DNA of 64,000 nucleotides from contig JAODUO010000186.1 in NCBI GenBank assembly GCA_025642075.2, positions 396,001-460,000 of the forward strand. Direction: 5' to 3'. The notes under the pieces are model-generated. The model was not told where the DNA came from. It did no database searches and worked only from the letters and a program-made list of their open reading frames with translations. Shown in pieces: positions 5,616 through 64,000 of the stretch (positions within the stretch are counted from its first letter, which is position 1; each line of letters opens with the position of its first letter). A program made the position numbers and the translations under genes. The stretch comes from Ridgeia piscesae. Its lineage: Eukaryota; Annelida; Polychaeta; Sabellida; Siboglinidae.

Positions 5616-6066
5616 TTTGATTTTTCCACTTCTTTCTCTTCCTTAGCAACAGGCTCCTCCTTCTTGGCAACAGGCTCCTCCTTCTTAGCAACCGGCTCCT
5701 CCTTCTTAGCAACAGGCTCCTCCTTCTTGGCAACAGGCTCCTCCTTCTTAGCAACAGGCTCCTCCTCCTTGGCAACAGGCTCCTCCTCCTTTACAATAGG
5801 CTCCTCCTCTTTGGCTACAGGCTCCTCCTTCTTTACAACAGGCTCCTCCTCCTTAACCACTGCAGCCACACTGACCGGGATGGCGTGGGAGACAATGCCC
5901 TCGCTGTTGACCGCTGCCACCGTGTATTCGCCACTGTCACTTCCCGTGGCCCGTTTTATCCTCAGGGAGTATGTGTTCTCCTTGCTTGTGACCTTCACAC
6001 GAGTGTCATCCTTTGATGTGACAGATTTCCCATCCTTGGACCATTTCACTTCTGGTTCGGGGGACG
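5616..6066 (-). CDS. Exon: C-half of Ig-4 followed by PEVK-like EEPVAKK repeat
   Basis: Phase 1 in (acceptor ATCAG), phase 2 out (TCAAA before GTATGT); 451 nt. The first 70 or so residues finish an Ig: ASPEPEVKWSKDGKSV with the core Trp, then SLRIKRATGSDSGEYTVAAV (DSGEY signature, F-strand Cys replaced by Val) and the G strand. Then about 11 imperfect copies of a 7-residue unit, EEPVAKK or EEPVAKE, encoded by a 21-bp repeat at about 5640-5850. Glu/Pro/Val/Lys-rich tracts like this behave as flexible springs in titin-like proteins. The exon ends EVEKSK. The nucleotide repeat is nearly uniform, so its copy number may vary between individuals. Confidence 0.88.
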
Positions 6067-8523: not shown

Positions 8524-9897
8524 CTGACAGGGAGCACGTGAGCAGCACGACGCCTCCCTCCCGCACCGACTTGTGCTGGGGAGGCAACAGGGGGACTCTC
8601 CGCGATGCCCACCTGTCCCTCACTGGGCTTCTTCCCATCCTCATCCCCGTCGAAGGAAGCCTTGCCCTTCCCTCTGAGTCCGACTGGGAGTCGGTCGGTG
8701 ACACATCTCCAAGTACCTTGGTAATGGTCAAGACCACTGGCTTGCTGACCAGCTTAGCGGTCACTGTCACTGGACGGGTCTTGAGACGATCAACTGGCTT
8801 ATCGAAGACTGCCAACACCCCCTTCTTATCCAACTCAGCCCTGTCGTTTTCCTCCTTCAAAGAATCTTTTCCCGGTGAAGATTTTGCAGAACCATATTTC
8901 GGTGTCGTCGTTTCAGAATGTCTGCGAAATCCCGATTTCAGTGTTGTTGTTTCAGAATTTCTGCGAGATCCTGAATTTGGTATCATCGCTTCAGAGTTTC
9001 TGCGAGATCCCGATTTGTCAGATGATATTCGTGGTGCTGATGAAGTCACTGGTTTCTCAGATCTTTGCTTCAGCAGTGATTTGGCAATTTGTAGTTTGGA
9101 CAATTTTGCTGCAGATTCTTTTGAAGAAGACAGTTTTGCAGCAGCAAATGTTGCATCCAAGTTTTGAAACTGCGACTCTACAGAATTTTTCCAGGACTGC
9201 AAGCTGGCAGAAAGTATCTTTGAGAGAGGTTTTGCGGTGTCCTTTGTTGAGCTAGGTTTTGCAGAATCCTTCTTCAACAAAGATTTTGCAGAATCTCTCC
9301 TAGATATATGTTTAGTGGGTTCTTTCGTCGAGACTGATCTTGCAGAATCGTTCTTTGCCTGCGATTTTGCAGAATCCTTCCTTGACAGTGATTTTTCTGA
9401 ATCTTTTCTTGACAATGATCTTGCAGAATCGTTCTTTGCCTGCGATTTTGCAGAATCCTTCCTTGACAGTGATTTTTCTGAATCTTTTCTTGACAATGAT
9501 TTTGCAGAATCTTTCTTTGCCTGTGATTTTGCAGAATCCTTCCTTGACAGTGATTTTTCTGAATCTTTTCTTGACAATGATCTTGCAGAATCGTTCTTTG
9601 CCTGCGATTTTGCAGAATCCTTTCTTGACAGTGATTTTGCAGAATCCTTCCTTGACAGTGATTTTGCAGAATCCTTCCTTGACAGTGATTTTTTTGAATC
9701 TTTTCTTGACAATGATTTTGCAGAATCTTTACTTGACAAAGAATTTATTGAATCTTTCCATGACAAAGATTCTTCAGAATCTTCTTCTGAAACTGGCTTT
9801 GCAGAATCTCTTCCTTGTGCAAATGTTTCAGAAGCTTTCCTCGGTTTTGATCTCGTACTGTCCTTTCGAGGTGACAATTCTGCAGAATCTGTTTTCC
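8524..9897 (-). CDS. Exon: Ser/Lys/Arg-rich SLSRKDSAK-repeat cassette ending in an Ig N-half
   Basis: Phase 1-1, 1,374 nt (458 codons): acceptor CACCAG, donor TCAG before GTTAGA. The core is about 20 tandem copies of a 9-residue unit (SLSRKDSAK, SLSRKDSEK, SQAKNDSAR) encoded by a 27-bp repeat, with a 27-residue (81-bp) higher-order period. Each RKDS places Ser three residues after Arg, the R-x-x-S pattern of basophilic kinases. A less regular basic Ser-rich region follows, with SGSRRNSE-type repeats, then a calmer segment (VTAKLVSKPVVLTITKVLGD) and VPLLPPQHKSVREGGVVLLT, ending CSLSG: the A'-B strands of an Ig. UNC-89 also has a Lys-Ser-Pro-rich region; this one differs in motif. See the finding on the cassette logic. 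Confidence 0.85.
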
Positions 9898-19806: not shown

Positions 19807-20112
19807 CAATCGCTTTCACAGTGATCACTGGAGCTTTCATCTCTGCTGGTGATTCGCTGCTTCCAGCCTCATTCTGGGCAAATACACGGAACTCGTAGCT
19901 GCAATCTGGCGACAGTCCATCGACCTTCACACTGCAGGTGCTGCCATCTACTGAGAGCACCTCTACAAATTCGCCTGATGAGCCTTGACGTTTCTCTACG
20001 ACATAGCGTGTGACTGGAGAACCTCCGTCAGACTTTGGAGAGTCCCAGGACAGAGAGGCTGAGTCCTTCGTGACGTCACTCACCTTCAACTTTCTCGGAG
20101 ATGACGGGTTTT
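19807..20112 (-). CDS. Exon: FN3-11 (duplicate group, copy A)
   Basis: Phase 1-1, 306 nt (acceptor TTTCCAG, donor ATTG before GTAAAT). Starts NPSSPRKLKVSDVTKDSASL; differs from copies C and D by about three residues in the core (EVLSVDG, EMKAPVITVKAIG). First of the four near-identical FN3 exons in transcript order. Confidence 0.92.
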
Positions 20113-35999: not shown

Positions 36000-36857
36000 A
36001 ACAGGTTAATGAATGCTCCCTAGGGTGTATGTCAATAATAATAATAATATGAAAATATATAGTGCACTTTTTAGCCTAAACTGCTCAAAGGTGCTTTATA
36101 TGTTCGTTAATTAAAAAGTGTCACAGATACTAACAGAGAAATGACACTAAAACTCAAAATGCAGTATTTTTTAAACTATGCAAAAGTAACACTAAAATGT
36201 CTAAGATAAGTCAATTACAAAATATATCTAAAATAAACACACATTAAGACTATCTACAAAATATGCAAAACAAATAAAAAAGTCATAAATAACTAAAATC
36301 AATCTAAAATGCCTATTTTATTATACAGATTTATATAAAATGGAGGTATTTTTATTATTATGATGTACATCAAGCACTTTTATTAAAGGTTTCCTGCTAA
36401 CATTATTCAACTAAAGCAAACCATTTAAAAAAAGTTGAAGATTGTATACCTTTTTATCTGTTGACTATTTCTCCTAAAAAATCAGTTCAGCTATCTTGTA
36501 TCTTACCAATGACATATGACATCTTAAACAAAATTGATAGAAACTATTGAACTCATCAGCAAACATGACAAATAAAACCAGTATATTAACAATTACTGAA
36601 GCTCTTTTCACTGATGCCTGTGTGCTCACATACTGTTAAAAACATCTTATCATAAACAGAGGACTGCCTGACTGAATCAATTGAAATATTCAGAAAAAAT
36701 ACCAAAATTTTCTCTTGAGACGCAATTAAGTTACCAGGTCGAATAAAACATTTCAAACAGCCAGAACATCACACACATTCTAAGAACACATTTACAACTT
36801 ACATCGTTACATACTTAACCAAAGCAACATATTCATATTAACATCACAAACTCTCAC
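36000..36857. other. Intron, nothing recognised
   Basis: AT-rich sequence with a short (aat)n run near 36,040. Confidence 0.4.
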
Positions 36858-37142
36858 ATTTGACAACAACAGTGAACTCTGCCTTATCCATGCCAGCCTT
36901 GTTCTCAGCCGTCACGTAATATTTCCCAGCATCCTTAGCGGTTACATCGCGTATCTTCAAGCAGGACCAGTCTGTGTCAATGCCAATGTTGACAGTTGAT
37001 GATTTCGTCAACGGAGTGTCACCATGGAGCCAGGCGACTGTGGGCTGTGGGAAGCCACTAATGTCTACCTCAATGTAGATCTTTCCTTTCACTTTCGTCA
37101 CAATCTCCTCATTCATCATCTCGTGGGACATGATGCGGGGCA
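36858..37142 (-). CDS. Exon: Ig-2 (I-set) preceding the FN3 array
   Basis: Phase 1-1, 285 nt (acceptor GTTTCAG, donor AAAT before GTGAGA). Starts PRIMSHEMMNEEIVTKVKGK, with IYIEVDISGFPQPTVAWLHG (core Trp present, B-strand Cys absent) and CLKIRDVTAKDAGKYYVTAE (DAGxY signature, F-strand Cys replaced by Val) and FTVVVK. The lack of both disulfide cysteines fits a cytoplasmic Ig. Confidence 0.92.
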
Positions 37143-37587
37143 CTGAAACAGTCCATTCAGACTGCGAGTGTATGTGGCTGAATGACCAGAGTTCAAAGTT
37201 TAAAGCACGACTGGGGTCAATACACATAATTTAGCCCACCATTTAGTTTTGTATTTAACTTATTTATTTTATCGAAGTAACTTATTTAACTTATTTTAAC
37301 CTATTTATTTAACCTATTTATCTAACTTAATTATTTTGCTGATATCGATATGCATTTACTTACTGTTATATTGTTAGTGCTTTGAGCATGTTTTAACCTT
37401 AAAATACGTGGCACTTTATCTTTCCCAATAAATGAATCATAAATAATAATTTAGATTACAATATTATAGCCAAACAGTGAGTGACTGGACCCATCAAATC
37501 ATGGCCGGTTGTTCTCACTGACAGATACGAGACTGGGAAGTCATCTCATCCACATTCCCTTCAGCAGTCCGATAGATCTATTCATTT

Positions 37588-37787: not shown

Positions 37788-38276
37788 ATGTATTTGTTTG
37801 ATCAACATCAGGAGCTATTAACACTGCATAATCATAACCAATTGTAAAGTGTACCAACTCATAATATAACTGCTAATTAGTCTTTAATTAGTAAATCACA
37901 TATTAAAACATTTAGATACAATCAACATTATGGCCCAAACAGTGATGGTGGTGCCATCTGTTATAGTTAGAGAAACTAATAACAACACTGGTGCCACCTA
38001 GCACATAGTTTAAGAAGCTAATACAGAAATAACATGAGGATCCAATGTTTTGTATAATACAGCACCAAGTCCACTTATGTTGTGTCTGCACTTTATTTAT
38101 TTTAAGATCAAAATATCAGGAGGAAATGTGTATAACATGAAACTTTTGATTGGACAAATAACAAGCATACCGGGATGTTTGTTATGAAAAAAATAGTAAA
38201 GGATTTTTTTATTATGAGGTTACTATCTTAGTGAACATGAAAGCTGTCTGTGACCCAGGACTGAGCCAGGACTGAC
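37788..38276. other. Intron, nothing recognised
   Basis: AT-rich. 'gtggtgccatctgttatag' and 'ctggtgccacctagcacatag' form a small direct repeat near 37,945-38,010. Confidence 0.4.
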
Positions 38277-38456
38277 CTATCAACTTCTCCCAGATCTCCT
38301 CCTTCTCCGACTCCTCCACCCGATTGATGACCTCCTCAATCACCGTCCGACCTGTCGACTTGAGGATCTGAATCTGCGAAATCTCTTCCTCAGAGAGTTT
38401 CTCCACAGTCATGGCAGAGGAGAATCCCTCATAGAACCTTGGTCCCCTTGTGTCAG
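38277..38456 (-). CDS. Exon: charged helical segment between Ig-1 and Ig-2
   Basis: Phase 1-1, 180 nt (acceptor CTTCCCCAG, donor ATAG before GTCAGT). Encodes ADTRGPRFYEGFSSAMTVEK, LSEEEISQIQILKSTGRTVI and EEVINRVEESEKEEIWEKLI, which is Glu/Lys/Ile-rich with hydrophobics spaced for an amphipathic helix. No family recognised. The acceptor is itself a copy of the 24-bp minisatellite that fills the intron upstream, and the exon frame stays open for about 10.8 repeat units beyond it, so the exon could be lengthened in 8-residue steps. Confidence 0.85.
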
Positions 38457-39035
38457 CTGGGGAAGACAGATACATTGTTATTAGGGGACATAGATACATT
38501 GTTACTAGGGGAGACAGACACACTGTTGCTAGGGTAGACAGACACACAGTTGCTAGGGGAGACAGAAACATTGTTACTAGGGGAGAAAGACACATTGTTA
38601 CTAGTGGAGACAGACACATTGTTACTAAGGGAGACAGCCACATTGTTACTAGGGGAGACAGACACATTGTTACTAAGGGAGACAGCCACATTGTTACTAG
38701 GGGAGACAGACACATTGTTACTAGGGAAGAGACACATTGTTACTAGGGGAGACAGACGCATTGCTACTAGGGAAGACAGACGCACTGTTACTAGGGAAGA
38801 CAGGCACATTGTTACTAGGGGAGACAGATGCACTGTTACTACGGATGACAGATACATTGTTACTAGGGAAGACATACACATTGTTACTAGGGAAGACAGA
38901 CACGTTGTTACTAGGGAAGACAGACACATTGTTACTAGGGAAAACAGACATGGTGTTACTAGGGAAGATAGACACATTGTTACTAGGGAAGATAGACACA
39001 TTGTTAATAGGGGAGACATACGCACTGTTACATAC
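38457..39035. repeat. 24-bp minisatellite (about 24 units) grown from the exon's 3' splice site
   Basis: Plus-strand units combine acattgttactagggg with agacagac. In sense each reads TAACAATGTG then TCTGTCTCCCCTAG. The real acceptor (TAACAATGTA then TCTGTCTTCCCCAG) is the first unit. Most units carry a pyrimidine run ending in CCTAG or CCCAG. One 20-base unit near 38,725 shifts the frame. ORFs on both strands through the array are by-products of the 24-bp (8-codon) period. Confidence 0.95.
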
Positions 39036-39316: not shown

Positions 39317-39726
39317 GATGTAAATACAACACAAAAACAATGCACTGGGCAGTACATGTAGACATTTCAGTTATCACCTTTGCACTTGTAGGTAGTTTAA
39401 ATTGAAAAGGCCAGCTGCCATAAAAAGTGATGTTTACAATACAAATGTGTTGTCCAATACTAACAGATTCATTGGATAATGTTCTTCTGTTTGCTGAGCA
39501 TAGTGCTGTATACCAAAAACAGATGTAAATACAACACAAAAACAATGCACTGGGCAGTACATGTAGACATTTCAGTTATCACCTTTGCACTTGTAGTTAG
39601 TTTAAATTGAAAAGGCCAGCTGCCATAAAAAGTCATGTTTACAATACAAATGTGTTGTCCAATAATAACAGATTCACTGGATAATGTTCTTCTGTTTGCT
39701 GAGCATAGTGCTGTATACCAAAAACA
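39317..39726. repeat. 205-bp tandem duplication
   Basis: Two copies start at gatgtaaatacaacac (39,317 and 39,522) and run to ctgtataccaaaaac, with only a few differences (gtaggtag/gtagttag, aagtgatg/aagtcatg, ccaatacta/ccaataata). Recent intronic duplication. Confidence 0.92.
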
Positions 39727-50237: not shown

Positions 50238-51142
50238 GCAGTCAGCAGCTACTGACCAACAAGTCAGCAGCTACTGATCAACAACAGTCAGCAGCTACTG
50301 ATCAACAACAGTCAGCAGCTACTGATCAACAACAGTCAGCAGCTACTGATCAACAACAGTCAGCAGTTACTGATCAACAACAGTCAGCAGTTACTGACCA
50401 ACAACAGTCAGCAGCTATTGATCAACAACAGTCAGCAGCTACTGATCAACAACAGTCAGCAGCTACTGATCAACAACAGTCAGCAGCTACTGATCAACAA
50501 CAGTCAGCAGCTACTGATCAACAACAGTCAGCAGCTACTGATCAACAACAGTCAGCAGCTACTGATCAACAACAGTCAGCAGTTACTGACCAACAACAGT
50601 CAGCAGCTACTGATCAACAACAGTCAGCAGCTACTGATCAACAACAGTCAGCAGCTACTGACCAACAACAGTCAGCAGCTATTGATCAACAACAGTCAGC
50701 AGCTATTGATCAACAACAGTCAGCAGCTACTGATCAACAACAGTCAGCAGCTACTGATCAACAACAGTCAGCAGCTACTGATCAACAACAGTCAGCAGCC
50801 AGTGACAGGCATCACAGCAGCTGATGACCTGTGTAGCAGTCAGCAGCCAGTGACCAACAACAGTCAGCCGCTACTGACCAACAGTCAGCTGCTACTGTTG
50901 ACCAACAATCAGCTGCTACTGACCAACAGTCAGCAGCTATTGACCAACAGTCAGCTGCTACTGTTGACCAACAATCAGCTGCTACTGACCAACAGTCAGC
51001 AGCTAGTGACCAACAGTCAGCTGCTACTGTTGACCAACAGTCAGCATATATTGACCAACAGTCAGCTGCTACTGTTGACCAACAGTCAGCTACTACTGAC
51101 CAACAGTCAACTACTACTGACCAACAGTCAGATGCTACCAGG
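50238..51142. repeat. 24-bp minisatellite (cagcagctactgatcaacaa-type) grading into shorter variants
   Basis: About 23 units of 24 bp at 50,250-50,812, then a second block to 51,142 with mixed 21/24-bp variants (tgaccaacagtcagctgctac, tactgttgaccaaca). Two plus-strand frames are open because 24 is divisible by 3: one reads SAATDQQQ, another QQLLINNS. It is interrupted by a MITE at 51,143-51,430 and resumes at 51,434. Confidence 0.95.
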
Positions 51143-51433: not shown

Positions 51434-51690
51434 GGCTGCTACTGACCAATAGTCAGCAGCTAATGACCATGCAACAACAATCAGCAGCTACTGATAAACA
51501 ACAGTCAGCAGCTAGTGACCAGCAGCAGTCAGCAGCTACTGACCAACAACAGTCAGCTACTACTGACTAGCAGCAGTCAGCAGCCACTAACCAACAACAG
51601 TCAGCAGTTAGTGACCAGCAACAGTCAGCAGCTACTGACCAATAACAGTCAGCTGCTACTGACCAGCAGCAGTCAGCAGCTATCTGATAA
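51434..51690. repeat. Continuation of the 24-bp minisatellite beyond the MITE
   Basis: Units such as cagcagctactgaccaacaa and gaccagcagcagtcagcagc, more diverged than the left block. Confidence 0.92.
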
Positions 51691-52209: not shown

Positions 52210-53198
52210 CAGGGTTGTGTTCAACAGTATTTGCATAAATTAATTTAACCTACAACTATATTATGTACCAGGTATAGTGTTTACACTTGAGTGTAGTTAT
52301 AACGCTGTGTAACGAAAGGTAATGTCTTATATACATGGTAGAGTATTTAGTTGTATTGTACTCTACCAATTACTGCAAGTAACCCATTTTTAAAAATCAA
52401 TCTAAGGCGATACTTCTACTATAACTTTATGTGTCCATTTTCACCAGCTTGGCAATTGTGTTATATAAACTTTATAACCGGAGTTTTTACAATGATATCT
52501 AGCTGTAATTAACCCAACCCTCGTGCCAAATATACTGAATGTTGCAGGCATCATCCAGGAAGTAACAGACCCTGACGTGTGCACATAAATACATGGAATG
52601 TATTTAGAAAGTAGCCAGTTGTGCTCCCGGACGTTATCTGCATACTGATCCCTATATTTCACATCACCAGGCAGCTAGACCACCTGGTCTGAGTCTAACA
52701 TGATAAGGCAGGAAGTTGAGGAGAATGTGGTCTGTCCCCACAGCCACATGTACTGAGAACTCTAACTCAAGTCATGGCTGCATGCATACAACAATTTTGG
52801 ACATGTATTGTAAAAACTACAAAATGAGCACTACATATTTACCTTACATTTTTGAACACACAAGAGGTGAAAAATCACCTGATACACATGAAGCTGTTCC
52901 CCCTGCCAGACCTGTTCATTCAGCAATATGTTCTATATAATTCAATTCTACTTCTCACTGTCATGTCCCAATTACTTCATGAAGTCTACTTGTCATAACC
53001 AGATATTAATTTGTTTCTTTCCGAACTAAGGTAAAATGGAATTATAAAACATTGCTTAAATTTGTAAATGATGGCAAGAGGATTGAAATCTTGGTCCTGT
53101 CCATCATGTTCGATGTTATATCCAGTGTTTTGGGGTTACTGACAGTTCCTCAATCACCACTCACTTCTAACCTGCTTCATTTCATTTCATCAACGTAC
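52210..53198. other. Intron, nothing recognised
   Basis: Unique AT-rich sequence just downstream, in sense, of the Ig-1 exon. Confidence 0.4.
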
Positions 53199-53496
53199 CT
53201 TTAACAACCAGGTAAGACGCTGTGGATGCGACACCTTCCGAGTTCTCCGCCCGGCATAGATACGAGCCCTCGTCCGTGGCTGTTACATTCTTAATCATGA
53301 GCATGATGACGCCATGATCTTCGTCAAATGTGATGTTGTAACGTGAATTATGTGTGATCTCCATGTCATCTTTGTACCAGGTGACAACCGGCAGTGGGTA
53401 GCCAATCACCTGGCACTCGAAATGTTGGGTTGCGCCCACCACAGCCACTTCCTCCGAATCAGCCATCTTATGCAGCGCTACGACTGACAGCGGGCG
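53199..53496 (-). CDS. Exon: Ig-1 (I-set), first clear domain; alternative start codon inside
   Basis: Phase 0 in (acceptor CTTTCAG), phase 1 out (AAAG before GTACGT); 298 nt. Encodes RPLSVVALHKMADSEEVAVV, then a complete I-set Ig: HFECQVIGYPLPVVTWYKDD (B-strand Cys, C-strand Trp), IMLMIKNVTATDEGSYLCRA (E-F strands with DEGxYxC) and the G strand TASYLVVK. Unlike Ig-2, both disulfide cysteines are present. The Met at 53,466 has a strong start context (AAG ATG G), so translation may begin here, with upstream sequence as 5' UTR, or at the tentative first exon at 56,475. Confidence 0.9.
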
Positions 53497-53509
53497 CTGA
53501 AAGTACACA

Positions 53510-54710
53510 TCACAGTTGTCACCTTAAGAAGTTTTATTAGAGACCATTTCACAAATATAATTAACTCATATGGAAAATCAGTCATTAAACAGAATCCACT
53601 GAATATTAAATTTTAGCGTGGTGTCTCAGATAACATTATTTCTGCGTCACATCACTGAAACAGTGACACATACTGGTGGTTTTATGCACTACAAGATCAC
53701 TGTTGCAGTGAAATCGATATTAAGAGTGAAATTGGGCTTATGAGCTCATAAGAATATTAGTGAAATGGTCCCATCATAAGACTGGGTTCACATTAAACAC
53801 ACTTACCTTCAACTTTAATAAAAAAAGTACATTTCATTCTATTAACATTTATGTGCTCATTGTACTAGAAAAAAATTATACTTTAATTTATAATACCTGG
53901 AATGTTGGTTGTAAAAAAGTAAAGTTTAATAAACCCACTTAAGTACGTTGTCGGTGCACTCTGAAAGTCATGCGTTTGAAATGCTCAAACTGTATACACT
54001 TGTTACAGTTCGAACACCAAGCCACAAATTGGTGACATACCGCTGAATCACTGAACTTCCTGGCTGTCTCTGGGTAATGGAACCTCGTTAAAGTATTACA
54101 TCAATTAGTCAATTTCTGTTCACATGTCGAATAAATTAAATTCTGATCACACATGTTTATCTGGATAATCCTGAGGTCCACAGACTGTGTGTGGCTCAAC
54201 TGGTTGATCACTGTGTGAAGAAATAGTCTGTTGCTGGTATCCACTTGTTCCTGCTGAAATCTGGGCAAACCGTACACTGTGGTTGAGCTGCCCGAATGAG
54301 AAACAGTACTTAGGATTGTCCATCTGGAGCCACCTCAGTTCACCTAGAATGATGTTGGTCTTTATCTGATAACACAACCAGAGGCAAGCAATGTTGGGAT
54401 GCTAAGATCACATGACTGGAAAATAACTCACGACGTAAACAGGAATGTGTTGGTGTTTAAATTGTTCTAGTAAGTTTACATATCTAGAGTTGTAACATTT
54501 GTGTAAAGGTGCTACATCTAACACTTGTGGGAAAGAGTATACAATTACTTAACTCGGTTGACTGCCCTACAGCAACATAGAGCACGACTGGAGTTGTCAG
54601 CTGTGAAGTTTCAGTTAGGGCTCACAACTTCAGCTGGTCATAGACCCTGTGTGTGTATTGGTGTGTGCACGCATGCACCTGCAACGTGTGCACAAACATG
54701 CATGTGTGTA
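53510..54710. other. Intron or 5' region, nothing recognised
   Basis: AT-rich. The block at about 53,530-53,775 (agaccatttcac...attgggcttatgagctcat...gaaatggtccc) has inverted ends (gaccatttcac / gtgaaatggtc) and resembles 22,130-22,375, so it is probably another small inverted-repeat element. Confidence 0.45.
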
Positions 54711-58249: not shown

Positions 58250-61200
58250 ATGTGGGCGTGATGGTGAATGAGGGAGGGTGGGAGAGTGTGTGAGGTTGAA
58301 TGAGGAAGGGAGGGAGAGTGTATGAGGGTAAATGAGGGAGGGTGGGAGAGTGTGTGAAGGTAAATGAGGGAGGATGGGAGAGTGTGTGAGGGATAAATGA
58401 GGGAGGGTGGGAGAGTGTGTGACGGTGAATGAGGAAGGGAGGGAGAGTGTGTGAGGGTAAATGAGGGAGGGTGTGAGAGTGTGTGAGGTTGAATGAGGAA
58501 GGGAGGGAGAGTGTGTGAGGTTGAATGAGGAAGGGTGGGACAGTGTGTGAGGGTGAATGAGGGATGGTGGGAGAGTGTGTGCGGGTAAATGAGGGAGGGT
58601 GGGAGAGTGTGTGAGGGTAAATGAGGGAGGTGGGAGAGTGTGTGAGGGTAAATGAGGGAGGGTGGGAGAGTGTGTGAGGTTGAATGAGGAAGGGAGGGAG
58701 AGTGTGTGAGGGTAAATGAGGGAGGGTGGGAGAGTGTGTGAGGGTGAATGAGGGAGGGTGGGAGAGTGTGTGAGGGTAAATGAGGGAGGGTGGGAGAGTG
58801 TGTGAGGGTGAATGAGGGAGGGTGGGAGAGTGTGTGAGGGTAAATGAGGGAGGGTGGGAGAGTGTGTGAGGGTGAATGAGGGAGGGTGGGAGAGTGTGTG
58901 AGGTGAATGAGGAAGGGTGGGAGAGTGTGTGAGGGTAAATGAGGGAGGGTGGGAGAGTGTGTGAGGGTAAATGAGGGAGGATGGGAGAGTGTGTGAGGGT
59001 AATGAGGAGGGTGGGAGAGTGTGTGAGGGTAAATGAGGGAGGTGGGAGAGTGTGTGACGGTGAATGAGGGAGGAGGGAGAGTGTGTGAGGGTAAATGAGG
59101 GAGGGTGGGAGAGTGTGTGAGGGTAAATGAGGAAGGGAGGGAGAGTGTGTGAGGGTAAATGAGGGAGGGTGGGAGAGTGTGTGAGGGTAAATGAGGAAGG
59201 GAGGGAGAGTGTGTGAGGGTAAATGAGGGAGGGTGGGAGAGTGTGTGACGGTGAATGAGGAAGGGAGGGAGAGTGTGTGAGGGTAAATGAGGGAGGGTGG
59301 GAGAGTGTGTGAGGTTGAATGAGGAAGGGAGGGAGAGTGTGTGAGGGTGAATGAGGGAGGGTGGGAGAGTGTGTGACGGTGAATGAGGAAGGGTGGGAGA
59401 GTGTGTGAGGGTAAATGAGGGAGGGTGGGAGAGTGTGTGACGGTGAATGAGGAGGGAGGGAGAGTGTGTGAGGGTGAATGAGGGAGGGTGGGAGAGTGTG
59501 TGAGGGTGAATGAGGGAGGGTGGGAGAGTGTGTGAGGGTGAATGAGGGAGGGTGGGAGAGTGTGTGGTGATGGAGGGGGGGAGTGTGTGAGGGTAAATGA
59601 GGGAGGGTGGGAGAGTGTGCGTGTGAATGAGGAAGGGAGGGAGAGTGTGTGAGGGAAATGAGGGAGGGTGGGAGAGTGTGTGACGGTGAATGAGGAAGGA
59701 GGGAGAGTGTGTGAGTAATGAGTGGAGGGTGGGAGAGTGTGTGAGGGTATGAGGGAGGTGTGGGAGAGTGTGTGCGGTGAATGAGGAAGGAGGGAGAGTG
59801 TGTGAGGGTAAATGAGGGGAGGTGGGAGAGTGTGTGACGGTGAATGAGGAAGGGAGGGAGAGTGTGTGGAGGGTAAATGAGGGAGGGTGGGGTGTAGTGA
59901 GGGTGAATGGGGGAGGGTGGGAGAGTGTGTGACGGTGAATGAGGAAGGGAGGGAGAGTGTGGAGGGTAAATGAGGGAGGGTGGAGAGTGTGTGACGGTGA
60001 ATGAGGAAGGGAGGGAGAGTGAGGTGAATGAGGGAGGGTGGGAGAGTGTGTGAGGGTAAATGAGGAAGGGAGGGAGAGTGTGGGAGGGTAAATGAGGGAG
60101 GGTGGGAGAGTGTGTGAGGGTAAATGAGGAAGGGAGGGAGAGTGTGTGAGGGTAAATGAGGGAGGGTGGGAGAGTGTGTGACGATGAATGAGGAAGGGAG
60201 GGAGAGTGTGTGAGGGTAAATGAGGGAGGGTGGGAGAGTGTGTGACGGTGAATGAGGAAGGGAGGGAGAGTGTGTGAGGGTAAATGAGGGAGGGTGGGAG
60301 AGTGTGTGAGGGTAAATGAGGAAGGGAGGGAGAGTGTGTGAGGTTGAATGAGGAAGGGAGGGAGAGTGTGTGACGGTAAATGAGGAAGGGAGGGAGAGTG
60401 TGTGACGGTAAATGAGGGAGGGTGGGAGAGTGTGTGAGGGTAAATGAGGAAGGGAGGGAGAGTGTGTGAGGTTGAATGAGGAAGGGAGGGAGAGTGTGTG
60501 AGGGTAAATGAGGGGAAAGGGGGGAGAGTGTGTGAGGTTGAATGGGGGGGAGGGAGAGTGTGTGAGGTAAATGAGGGAGGGTGGGAGAGTGGTTTCGGTA
60601 ATTGAGGGAGGGTGGGAGAGTGTGTGACGGTAAATGAGGAAGGGAGGGAGAGTGTGTGACGGTAAATGAGGGAGGGTGGGAGAGTGTGTGACGGTAAATG
60701 AGGAAGGGAGGGAGAGTGTGTGACGGTAAATGAGGGAGGGTGGGAGAGTGTGTGACGGTAAATGAGGAAGGGAGGGAGAGTGTGTGACGGTAAATGAGGG
60801 AGGGTGGGAGAGTGTGTGACGGTAAATGAGGGAGGGTGGGAGAGTGTGTGACGGTAAATGAGGGGAAAGGGGGGGAGAGTGTGTGACGGTAAATGAGGAA
60901 GGGAGGGAGAGTGTGTGACGGTAAATGAGGGAGGGTGGGAGAGTGTGTGACGGTAAATGAGGGAGGGTGGGAGAGTGTGTGACGGTAAATGAGGAAGGGA
61001 GGGAGAGTGTGTGACGGTAAATGAGGAAGGGAGGGAGAGTGTGTGACGGGGAAAAGAGGGAGGGTGGGAGAGTGTGTGAGGGTAAATGAGGGGAAGGGGA
61101 GGAGAGTGGTGGGTGAAGAGAGGGAGGGAGATGTGTGGGGTGAATGAGGAGGGGGGAGAGTGTGTGAGGGTAAATGAGGGAGGGTGGGAGAGTGTGTGAG

Positions 61201-63705
61201 GTTGAATGAGGAAGGGAGGGAGAGTGTGTGAGGGTAAATGAGGGAGGGAGGGAGAGTGTGTGAGGGAAAAGAGGAAGGGAGGGAGAGTGTGTGAGGTTGA
61301 ATGAGGAAGGGAGGGAGAGTGTGTGAGGGTAAATGAGGAAGGGAGGGAGAGTGTGTGAGGGTAAATGAGGGAGGGTGGGAGAGTGTGTGAGGTTGAATGA
61401 GGAAGGGAGGGAGAGTGTGTGAGGGTAAATGAGGGAGGGAGGGAGAGTGTGTGAGGGTGAATGAGGGAGGGTGGGAGAGTGTGTGAGGGTAAATGAGGGA
61501 GGGTGGGAGAGTGTGTGAGGGTGAATGAGGGAGGGGGGGAGTGTGTGAGGGTAAATGAGGAAGGGAGGGAGAGTGTGTGAGGTTGAATGAGGAAGGGAGG
61601 GAGAGTGTGTGAGGGTAAATGAGGGAGGGTGGGAGAGTGTGTGAGGGTAAATGAGGGAGGGTGGGAGAGTGTGTGAGGGTGAATGAGGAAGGGAGGGAGA
61701 GTGTGTGAGGGTAAATGAGGGAGGGAGGGAGAGTGTGTGAGGGTGAATGAGGGAGGGTTTGGGAGAGGGTGAGGGTAATGAGGGGGGGTGGGAGAGTGTG
61801 TGAGGGTGAATGAGGGAGGGTGGGAGAGGTGTGAGGTGAATGAGGGGGGGGAGAGTGTGAGGGTAAGAGGGGGGTGGGAGAGTGTGTGAGGGTAAATGAG
61901 GGAGGGTGGGAGAGTGTGTGACGGTGAATGAGGAAGGGAGGGAGAGTGTGTGAGGGTAAATGAGGGAGGGTGGGAGAGTGGTGAGGTAAAAGAGGGAGGG
62001 GTGGGAGAGGTGTGAGGGAATGAGGGAGGGTGGGGGAGTGTGTGAGGTGAATGAGGAAGGGAGGGAGAGGGGTGAGGGTAAAAGAGGGAGGGAGGGAGAG
62101 GTGGAGGGTAAATGAGGGAGGGTGGGAGAGTGTGTGAGGGAATGAGGAAAGAGAGGGAGAGTGTGTCAGGGTAATGAGGGAGGGTGGGGAGAGGGGTGAG
62201 GTTGAATGAGGAAGGGAGGGAGAGTGTGGGAGGGTAAATGAGGGAGGGTGGGAGAGTGTGTGAGGGTGAATGAGGGAGGGTGGGAGAGTGTGTGAGGGTA
62301 AATGAGGGAGGGTGGGAGAGTGTGTGAGGTTGAATGAGGAAGGGAGGGAGAGTGTGTGAGGGTGAATGAGGGAGGGTGGGAGAGTGTGAGGGTAAATGAG
62401 GGAGGGTGGGAGAGTGTGTGACGGTGAATGAGGGAGGATGGGAGAGTGTGTGAGGGTGAATGAGGGAGGGTGGGAGAGTGTGTGAGGGTGAATGAGGGAG
62501 GGTGGGAGAGTGTGTGAGGGTGAATGAGGGAGGGTGGGAGAGTGTGTGAGGGTAAATGAGGGAGGGTGGGAGAGTGTGTGACGGTGAATGAGGGAGGGTG
62601 GGAGAGTGTGTGAGGGTGAATGAGGGAGGGTGGGAGAGTGTGTGAGGGTGAATGAGGGAGGGTGGGAGAGTGTGTGAGGGTGAATGAGGGAGGGTGGGAG
62701 AGTGTGTGAGGGTGAATGAGGGATGGTGGGAGAGTGAGTGAGGGTGAATGAGGCAGGGTGAGAGAGTGTGTGAGGTTGAATGAGGAAGGGTGGGAGAGTG
62801 TGTGAGGGTGAATGAGGGAGGGTGGGAGAGTGTGTGAGGGTGAATTAGGGAGGTGGGAGAGTGTGTGACGGTGAATGAGGGAGGATGGGAGAGTGTGTGA
62901 GGGTGAATGAGGGAGGGTGGGATAGTGTGTGAGGGTGAATGAGGGAGGGTGGGAGAGTGTGTGAGGGTGAATGAGGGAGGGTGGGAGAGTGTGAGGGTGA
63001 ATGAGGGAGGGTGAGAGAGTGTTGAAGGTGAATGGGGAGGGTGGGAGAGTGAGTGAGCGTGAATGAGGGAGGGTGGGAAAGTGTGTGAGGGTGAATGAGG
63101 GAGGGTGTGAGAGTGTGTGAGCGTGAATGAGGGAGGGTGTGAGAGTGTGTGAGGGTGAATGAGGGAGGGTGGGAGAGTGTGTGAGGGTGAATGAGGGAGG
63201 GTGGGAGAGTGTGTGAGGGTGAATGAGGGAGGGTGTGAGAGTGTGTGAGGTGAATGAGGGAGGGTGGGAGAGTGTGTGAGCGTGAATGAGGGAGGGTGTG
63301 AGAGTGTGAGGCTGAATGATGGAGGGTGGGAGAGGGGTGGGGGTGGGGGCGGGGGAAAGTGTGTGAGGGTGAATGAGGGGGGGTGTGAGAGGGGAGCGTG
63401 AATGAGGGTGGGTGGAGAGTGTGTGAGGGTGAATGAGGGAGGGTGGGAGGTGTGAGGGTGAATGAGGGAGGGTGTGAGAGTGTGTGAGGGTGAATGAGGG
63501 AGGGTGGGAGAGTGTGTGAGGGTGAATGAGGGAGGGGGGGAAGAGTGTGTTATGGTGAAGGAGGGAGGGTGGGAGAGTGTGTGACAGTGAATGAGGGAGG
63601 GTGGGAGAGTGTGTTATGGTGAAGGAGGGAGGGTGGGAGAGTGTGTGACAGTGAATGAGGGAGGGTGGAAGAGTGTGACGGTGAATGAGGGAGGGTGGGA
63701 GAGTA
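58250..63705 (+). repeat. 5.5-kb, 32-bp G-rich minisatellite (about 170 units)
   Basis: The unit is 32 bp: gtgagggtgaatgaggg then agggtgggagagtgt. Two main variants occur: A (gagggagggtgggagag) and B (gaggaagggagggagag), often alternating as a 64-bp higher-order unit in the left half, with mostly A units at the right end. Other shared variants are gtgacggt and gtgaggtt. Patches near 59.56-59.77, 61.08-61.15, 61.75-62.2 and 63.33-63.42 kb contain many small indels. Each A unit contains four GGG tracts with loops of 7, 1 and 1 bases. Confidence 0.97.
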
Positions 63706-64000
63706 TGTGAACGTCACATGTATAGCATAGTAACAGACAATATAGGCCTACGTATGGTTTATAAATCTGATGCATTTATGTGTTGACTGTTCGAGTATTT
63801 TAGGCAATTTAGTCAAATAAACCTCTGTGTCTTTGTGAAATAAAACGGAAGGCACAAAAAAGATACAGCGGGACCACTGTTGCAGGTACACCAAGTTGCT
63901 CCACACAGCCCCTTCTGGGGCTAACATAGGAGTTGTGCAGTGCGCAATGCTGGGTGCATGAAGGTGAATTTAGAAGAAAAATACTAACAATTGAAATGAA
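63706..64000. other. Flank of the minisatellite, nothing recognised
   Basis: Unique sequence to the window end; 'gtgcagtgcgcaatgctggg' is not part of a recognisable gene. Confidence 0.4.

Follow-up and report, generated by a model that had tools for sequence, protein, structure and literature searches.

The window analysed here, 64,000 nucleotides of the annelid Ridgeia piscesae (contig JAODUO010000186.1, positions 396,001 to 460,000), carries a titin-like Ig/Fn3 gene on its minus strand, which is therefore the sense strand. One intron of this gene (53199 to 38456; 14.7 kb) ends in a minisatellite of 24 bp units, the last of which forms the predicted 3' splice site of the exon that follows, referred to below as the focal exon. 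The sequence is best accounted for, with a probability of roughly 0.8, by an array that grew locally at the intron end, in which the terminal unit is almost always used, the upstream copies leak little and the array as a whole is tolerated without being useful. The array itself is real and tidy, and a functional reading of it is unlikely.

The array and its origin

Tandem Repeats Finder (TRF) places the array at 38460-39031, with a period of 24, 23.9 copies, 86% matches and a score of 766. The units, numbered upstream from the exon, are laid out as follows.

38457..39030, minus strand: minisatellite whose 24 units are all 24 bp long apart from one of 22 bp, with the consensus sense unit TAACAATGTGTCTGTCTCCCCTAG, from TRF and the unit register
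38457..38480, minus strand: unit 0, the terminal unit and putative acceptor of the focal exon, which ends in CTTCCCCAG and is the sole unit ending in CAG
38481..38504, minus strand: unit 1, in which the AG is lost (it ends CCCCTAA), so that the nearest upstream competitor is dead, from the unit register
38505..38742, minus strand: units 2-11, with the AG kept in ten of ten, in frame by translation of the Ig-1 exon, the insert and the following exons
38721..38742, minus strand: unit 11, which lacks 2 bp (22 bp in all) and shifts the frame, from the unit register
38743..39006, minus strand: units 12-22, with the AG kept in 11 of 11 and a premature stop if used, by translation
39007..39030, minus strand: unit 23, the outer edge, in which the AG is lost (TAT), from the unit register

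An initial annotation of the window had described the intron end as one unit of a 24 bp repeat and had counted about 20 acceptor-like sites, and both statements hold. The terminal unit (38480-38457; TAACAATGTATCTGTCTTCCCCAG) shares 21 of its 24 bases with the consensus unit, and an AG is retained at the end of 21 of the 23 upstream units, the two losers being the edge units 1 and 23. The spacing between unit AGs is 24 bases and, once, 22. Across the window, the last 23 bases of the consensus unit find 19 matches with three or fewer mismatches, all of them in the array, whereas 100 shuffles yield none. The array runs up to the final base of the intron and no further; the exon start, CTGACACAAGG, does not extend the unit.

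Each unit combines a branch-point-like TAAC, a pyrimidine run and an AG. The TAG that ends one unit and the TAAC that opens the next together read TAGTAAC, which matches six of the seven bases of TACTAAC, the yeast-type branch-site consensus. A branch point in each unit, which the initial annotation proposed to look for, is present in candidate form wherever the AG is kept (five or six matches out of seven, with five in units 2, 3 and 12), but the match in unit 23 falls to four. Since the units hold these parts of a 3' splice site, use of an upstream copy is conceivable and would be partly frame-neutral. The focal acceptor itself takes the form TAACAATGT...CAG. Its branch-like heptamer, TAATAAC, starts three bases upstream of unit 0 and sets the branch-like A 22 bases before the exon; the match of six out of seven is the best among the 19 modelled acceptors (at most five in the other 18) and is reached at 3% of 4000 random intron positions. 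The terminal site, CCCCAG/CTGACA, does not have the two AGs three bases apart of a NAGNAG tandem acceptor.

The placement of the array was assessed with 15 arrays that were hand-listed from the TRF output within the modelled introns, with overlapping rows merged. When these are placed at random in the modelled introns, one lies 3 bp or less from an acceptor in 3.65% of trials, and the coincidence of a unit AG in register with the acceptor would contribute a further chance factor of about 1/24. Because of these two figures, we regard the array and the acceptor as one sequence family rather than accidental neighbours, and a common origin of minisatellite and acceptor is supported. The claim that the minisatellite was born from the acceptor is upheld to that extent, but the sequence would fit a birth of this kind and a capture of the acceptor alike. 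In a capture, an older intronic minisatellite with acceptor-like units would have reached the exon, and its last unit would have replaced an older acceptor. The terminal unit is an ordinary array member, closest to unit 19 (two differences), and its unique CAG looks as though it had been improved from TAG, although a seed unit that had retained CAG fits equally well. We consider capture, which concerns the origin only, a tentative alternative with appreciable but less than even odds.

In the local growth that we prefer, a 24 bp segment with a branch-like site, a pyrimidine run and an AG would have served as the unit, and the array would have expanded in place, through slippage or unequal exchange, within the final few hundred bases of the intron. 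Three pairs of units are identical (7 and 9, 8 and 10, 21 and 22), which suggests a recent two-unit and a recent one-unit duplication. The differences between units tend to grow with distance, from a mean of 3.3 for neighbours to 4.1-5.0 at 12-20 units, yet the mean at 21 units is 3.7. The array appears to undergo ordinary minisatellite turnover, which predicts that its length varies between individuals. The dead unit 1 need not have been selected, since array edges are where wear is expected.

Two further arrays of 24 bp units, of the CAGTCAGCAGCTACTGATCAACAA type, lie in the same large intron (50239-51126 and 51447-51687) and have long plus-strand open frames; their period is that of the acceptor array and they bear no evident sequence relation to it. 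About 290 bases upstream of the acceptor array there is a 205 bp tandem duplication (two copies, 98% matches, 39317-39726).

Strength and choice of the acceptor sites

Site strength was scored with a matrix of the gene's own acceptors, built from 16 of the 19 modelled sites (the focal site, 18889, which has no AG, and 53496, which is uncertain, were left out). In leave-one-out scoring the real acceptors range from -4.44 to 8.59, with a lower quartile of -0.73; the median was taken as the upper median, 3.23 (the midpoint median is 2.52). The used site scores 3.32, above all 26 AGs of the array (21 unit ends and five others; best 2.89). None of these 26 reaches 3.23, 13 (11 of them unit ends) reach -0.73 and 25 reach -4.44; at the midpoint median a single array AG passes, 39024 (2.89), which is not a unit end. 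Among the 818 AGs elsewhere in the intron, 15 reach 3.23, 108 reach -0.73 and 334 reach -4.44. Ordinary intron decoys thus include sites that are stronger than any in the array, at a density of 1.06 per kb at 3.23 compared with 0 in the array. The purine fraction is 0.62 in the focal exon, 0.38 in the array and 0.55 in the other exons.

The terminal unit would be preferred because it alone ends in CAG, has a good branch match and is followed by a purine-rich exon, while unit 1 is dead and the other copies sit in a pyrimidine-rich stretch. The splicing machinery would then pick the terminal unit (38456) almost always, and we expect 38456 to be found in RNA nearly always, with little leakage. 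The upstream copies may leak at a low level, probably a few per cent at most; ten of the sites would give hydrophobic in-frame insertions, and the other 11 would yield messages expected to be cleared by nonsense-mediated decay.

Several observations weigh against this picture of a dominant terminal site in a tolerated array. The assignment of 38456 as the used acceptor is itself a prediction from phase, splice signals and gene structure. Mediocre sites are denser in the array than in the rest of the intron (22.5 versus 7.65 per kb at -0.73 in the own matrix). In a general acceptor matrix, which is rough, units 4 (3.98) and 5 (3.63) score above the used site (3.60), and of the 21 AG-bearing units six reach the lower quartile of the real acceptors and two their median, and none falls short of the weakest real acceptor; on paper, some copies are competitive. 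The TAGTAAC stretch is the least changed of the unit, with six changes in 161 cells (counted by column over 23 of the 24 units, with the 22 bp unit left out), the joint lowest of 24 circular windows. This low change has P = 0.035 relative to random seven-column sets and P = 0.072 with subfamily column 18 zeroed. Constraint on the splice signals could be responsible, and we retain it as a faint hint only, as the units share a common descent and the P value hangs on one subfamily column. A 24-base intronic minisatellite of Caenorhabditis elegans, CeRep25B, is moreover described as enriched near multiple alternative splicing decisions (PMC4039745).

With the same general matrix, 50 of the 818 AGs in the rest of the intron reach the lower quartile of the real acceptors and 37 reach the median. 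The top two unit scores were considered as proof of competitive sites and rejected, as the matrix that yields them is rough.

A stronger form of the preferred explanation, which does not exclude it, has the upstream units in infrequent yet measurable use; transcripts from the distal ones would go to nonsense-mediated decay, and the output would drop slightly, in step with the individual's repeat number. The AG and a branch-like match of five or six out of seven in 21 of the 23 upstream units are consistent with such leakage, as are the 11 units that would yield a premature stop. There is also a parallel in the variable number tandem repeat (VNTR) of human ABCA7, in which retention of one unit amounts to 2 +/- 1% and is independent of VNTR length, in contrast to exon 19 skipping, which increases with it (PMC5954066). 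The copies nevertheless score below the terminal site in the own matrix and the purine-rich exon favours the latter. We consider measurable leakage of this kind possible but lean against it.

Gene setting and the predicted products of upstream use

The exons that flank the array are as follows.

53496..53199, minus strand: Ig-1 exon (Pfam I-set, E = 1.6e-20, in the open frame 53182-53523), the acceptor of which at 53496 is uncertain
53199, minus strand: Ig-1 donor, AAAG/gtacgt
38456..38277, minus strand: focal exon, possibly a helical linker between Ig-1 and Ig-2; 180 nt, phase 1-1, 59 whole codons
37142..36858, minus strand: Ig-2 exon, phase 1-1 (Pfam I-set, E = 6.7e-17, in the open frame 36844-37230)

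The gene was modelled with 19 exons, 17 of which are internal, 180-309 nt in length, divisible by three and of phase 1-1, including the focal exon when it starts at 38456. The Ig-1 donor at 53199 and the focal exon start are both in phase 1, and the donor of the focal exon reads TAG/gtcagt. Further exons within the large intron were judged by the list of open frames only. From Ig-2, a run of Fn3-looking exons continues down to 12157; Pfam was applied to one open frame of this run, 36005-35664 (fn3, E = 3.7e-11). The best PDB sequence match of Ig-1 and Ig-2 is titin (among the best 60 of 203 matches), with the best stretches over Ig-1 or Ig-2 and some of them extending to residue 121. The joined Ig-1, helix and Ig-2 protein (254 residues) gave 303 candidates in a collection of prokaryotic, viral and metagenomic proteins, none of them with E <= 0.001. 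The focal exon alone has no family match in Pfam or NCBIfam, and among PDB sequences it has one at chance level (E = 0.87). Rfam (at gathering scores) and a tRNA scan gave no match in the whole window. The focal exon had been called helical, and an AlphaFold2 single-sequence model does predict short helices (residues 7-10, 22-33, 38-45 and 48-58), but with a low mean predicted local distance difference test score of only 64.9; the label is no more than plausible.

Farther along the gene, the Fn3-like exon 18889-18584 (minus strand) is one of several near-identical duplicates. It reads TTTTCCAAA in place of the TTTTCCAG found in the sister exon at 20112, such that the AG is absent at the homologous acceptor; this copy may be skipped, dead or affected by a sequence error. 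Upstream of Ig-1 lies a 5.4 kb minisatellite (58258-63710; 32 bp unit, 173 copies by TRF), where the plus strand is strongly G-skewed (GC skew of 0.925 for 60001-64000). Two coding-looking repeats are present on the minus strand: a Ser/Lys-rich 27/81 bp repeat of KDSAKSLSR type (9257-9817) in a 470-residue open frame, and a 21 bp repeat of EEPVAKE type (5642-5855) that follows an Ig domain and shares an open frame with it.

Use of any of the ten sites in units 2-11 would insert 48-264 nt in frame, which translate to 16-88 residues of VTMCLSPL-type repeats. The initial annotation had foreseen an insertion of eight residues per unit without a stop. The in-frame insertions from units 2-11 bear this out, and their ten sites agree with the 10.8 open units that it counted, but the form with eight added residues is impossible since unit 1 ends in TAA, and in-frame insertions begin at 16 residues. 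The open frame, put at about 10.8 units up to 38,715, in fact runs slightly further, back to 38739 (stop-to-stop open reading frame 38212-38739). The frame is broken close to 38,725, as had been noted, but by a unit of 22 bp rather than 20. The 11 sites of units 12-22 lie past this unit; from there the frame is shifted and meets a TGA at exon positions 2-4.

Stops are absent from two sense and two antisense frames of the consensus unit, out of three each, and the second open sense frame (SNNVSVSP) is equally stop-free over units 0-10. Under random substitution at the observed number (20), the focal frame stays open over units 0-10 with a probability of 0.815. Because two of the three sense frames are open anyway and this probability is high, the openness of the frame is no sign of selection, and the open frame was rejected as evidence of coding. 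The insert is, in addition, strongly hydrophobic. Its grand average of hydropathy is 1.48, compared with a maximum of 0.14 for any 88-residue window of the 2049-residue modelled protein, and 40% of its 19-residue windows reach a hydropathy of 1.6, compared with none in the model. Such a sequence would hardly make a useful linker in a soluble muscle protein.

These results bear on the proposal of a tunable-length splice device, in which regulated choice of an upstream unit would add 16-88 residues between Ig-1 and the helical exon. Ten upstream units do have an AG, a branch match of five or six out of seven and a frame open into the exon, the TAGTAAC stretch is the best kept jointly with one other window, and human UBC offers a precedent, with tandem dual-specific sites that lead to transcripts with varying numbers of ubiquitin units (PMC10809524). 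The same frame is, however, expected to be open by chance; the insert is hydrophobic, 11 of the 21 sites lead to a stop, the unit nearest the exon is dead and the used site outscores every AG of the array in the own matrix. The median acceptor of the gene is reached by none of the 21 copies in that matrix and by two in the general one, and the account of UBC cited above found no tissue-specific or feedback regulation. The proposal is not supported by this comparison and we regard a regulated device as very unlikely. A reading in which measurable use of the upstream units in muscle makes the unstable array an individual-specific ladder of ten in-frame acceptors followed by 11 that produce stops, with both longer isoforms and a loss of message that depends on repeat number, is improbable too. 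Least likely of all is a coding array, in which the exon would begin among the units and the protein would normally include the VTMCLSPL repeats, as the frame open to 38739 would allow, given the equally stop-free SNNVSVSP frame, a hydropathy without parallel in the modelled protein, the fit of a start at 38456 to the 180-309 nt, phase 1-1 pattern of the 17 internal exons and an acceptor of ordinary strength at that position.

Significance and comparison with known systems

The array is a clean natural setting in which to test how splicing settles on a single 3' splice site when some twenty near-copies follow one another at 24-base intervals, every one of them with a branch-point-like site. 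Exclusive use of the last unit would mean that the choice is made by terminal position, CAG and the downstream exon; use of upstream units would mean that protein length or message level is set by a fast-mutating repeat. The array is well worth an RNA check, although its sequence gives little reason to expect a working length-tuning device.

In holding the signal of the adjoining exon within the unit and in register with it, the array is a splice-site-bearing minisatellite of the ABCA7 and IFI6 kind, and adds an acceptor-side, partly in-frame case to this small set. The human 6-16 (G1P3, IFI6) minisatellite reportedly provides several donor sites, as the title of a 1995 paper has it, and differs from the present array in lying on the donor side. 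The VNTR in intron 18 of human ABCA7 consists of 25 bp units that lie flush with exon 18, each opening with a donor (PMC5954066). It resembles the present array in this flush position and in the boundary splice signal carried by each unit, but it too is on the donor side, and as 25 is not a multiple of three retention shifts the frame; retention of one unit is independent of length there, whereas exon 19 skipping grows with it (PMC5954066).

In the amphioxus 'mirages', exon-intron boundaries of Adh3 and of the globin genes BflGb6 and BflGb9 are duplicated in tandem, with AG/GT signals in many units (PMC3087553). Like the present array, they are minisatellite-like repeats at a boundary, with splice signals in the units, tandem-repeat turnover and length instability, and in BflGb6 it is likewise the 3' end of an intron that is copied. 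They differ in that the unit includes exonic sequence (150-160 bp units in BflGb6 and 10-72 bp in Adh3), whereas the present array ends at the intron end and does not span the boundary. The Adh3 data and globin reverse-transcription PCR suggest that regular splicing is undisturbed by the mirages (PMC3087553). In human UBC, as in the present array, a splice signal occurs once per in-frame repeat unit, and a ladder of lengths results for which the cited account found no regulation; there, however, the repeat is coding and the site works as donor or acceptor (PMC10809524). The present repeat is intronic, and its unit ends read AG/TAAC, AG/CAAC or AG/TAGC rather than the AG followed by GT of a dual-specific site. 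More generally, tandem repeats in humans can bring cryptic sites and new introns into use (PMC2812944). In our literature search, which had most subscription papers outside its reach, amphioxus BflGb6, with its long units, was the one further acceptor-side array found. Repeats that carry splice sites are already known, and the present array is their acceptor-side counterpart with a 24 bp, partly frame-neutral unit.
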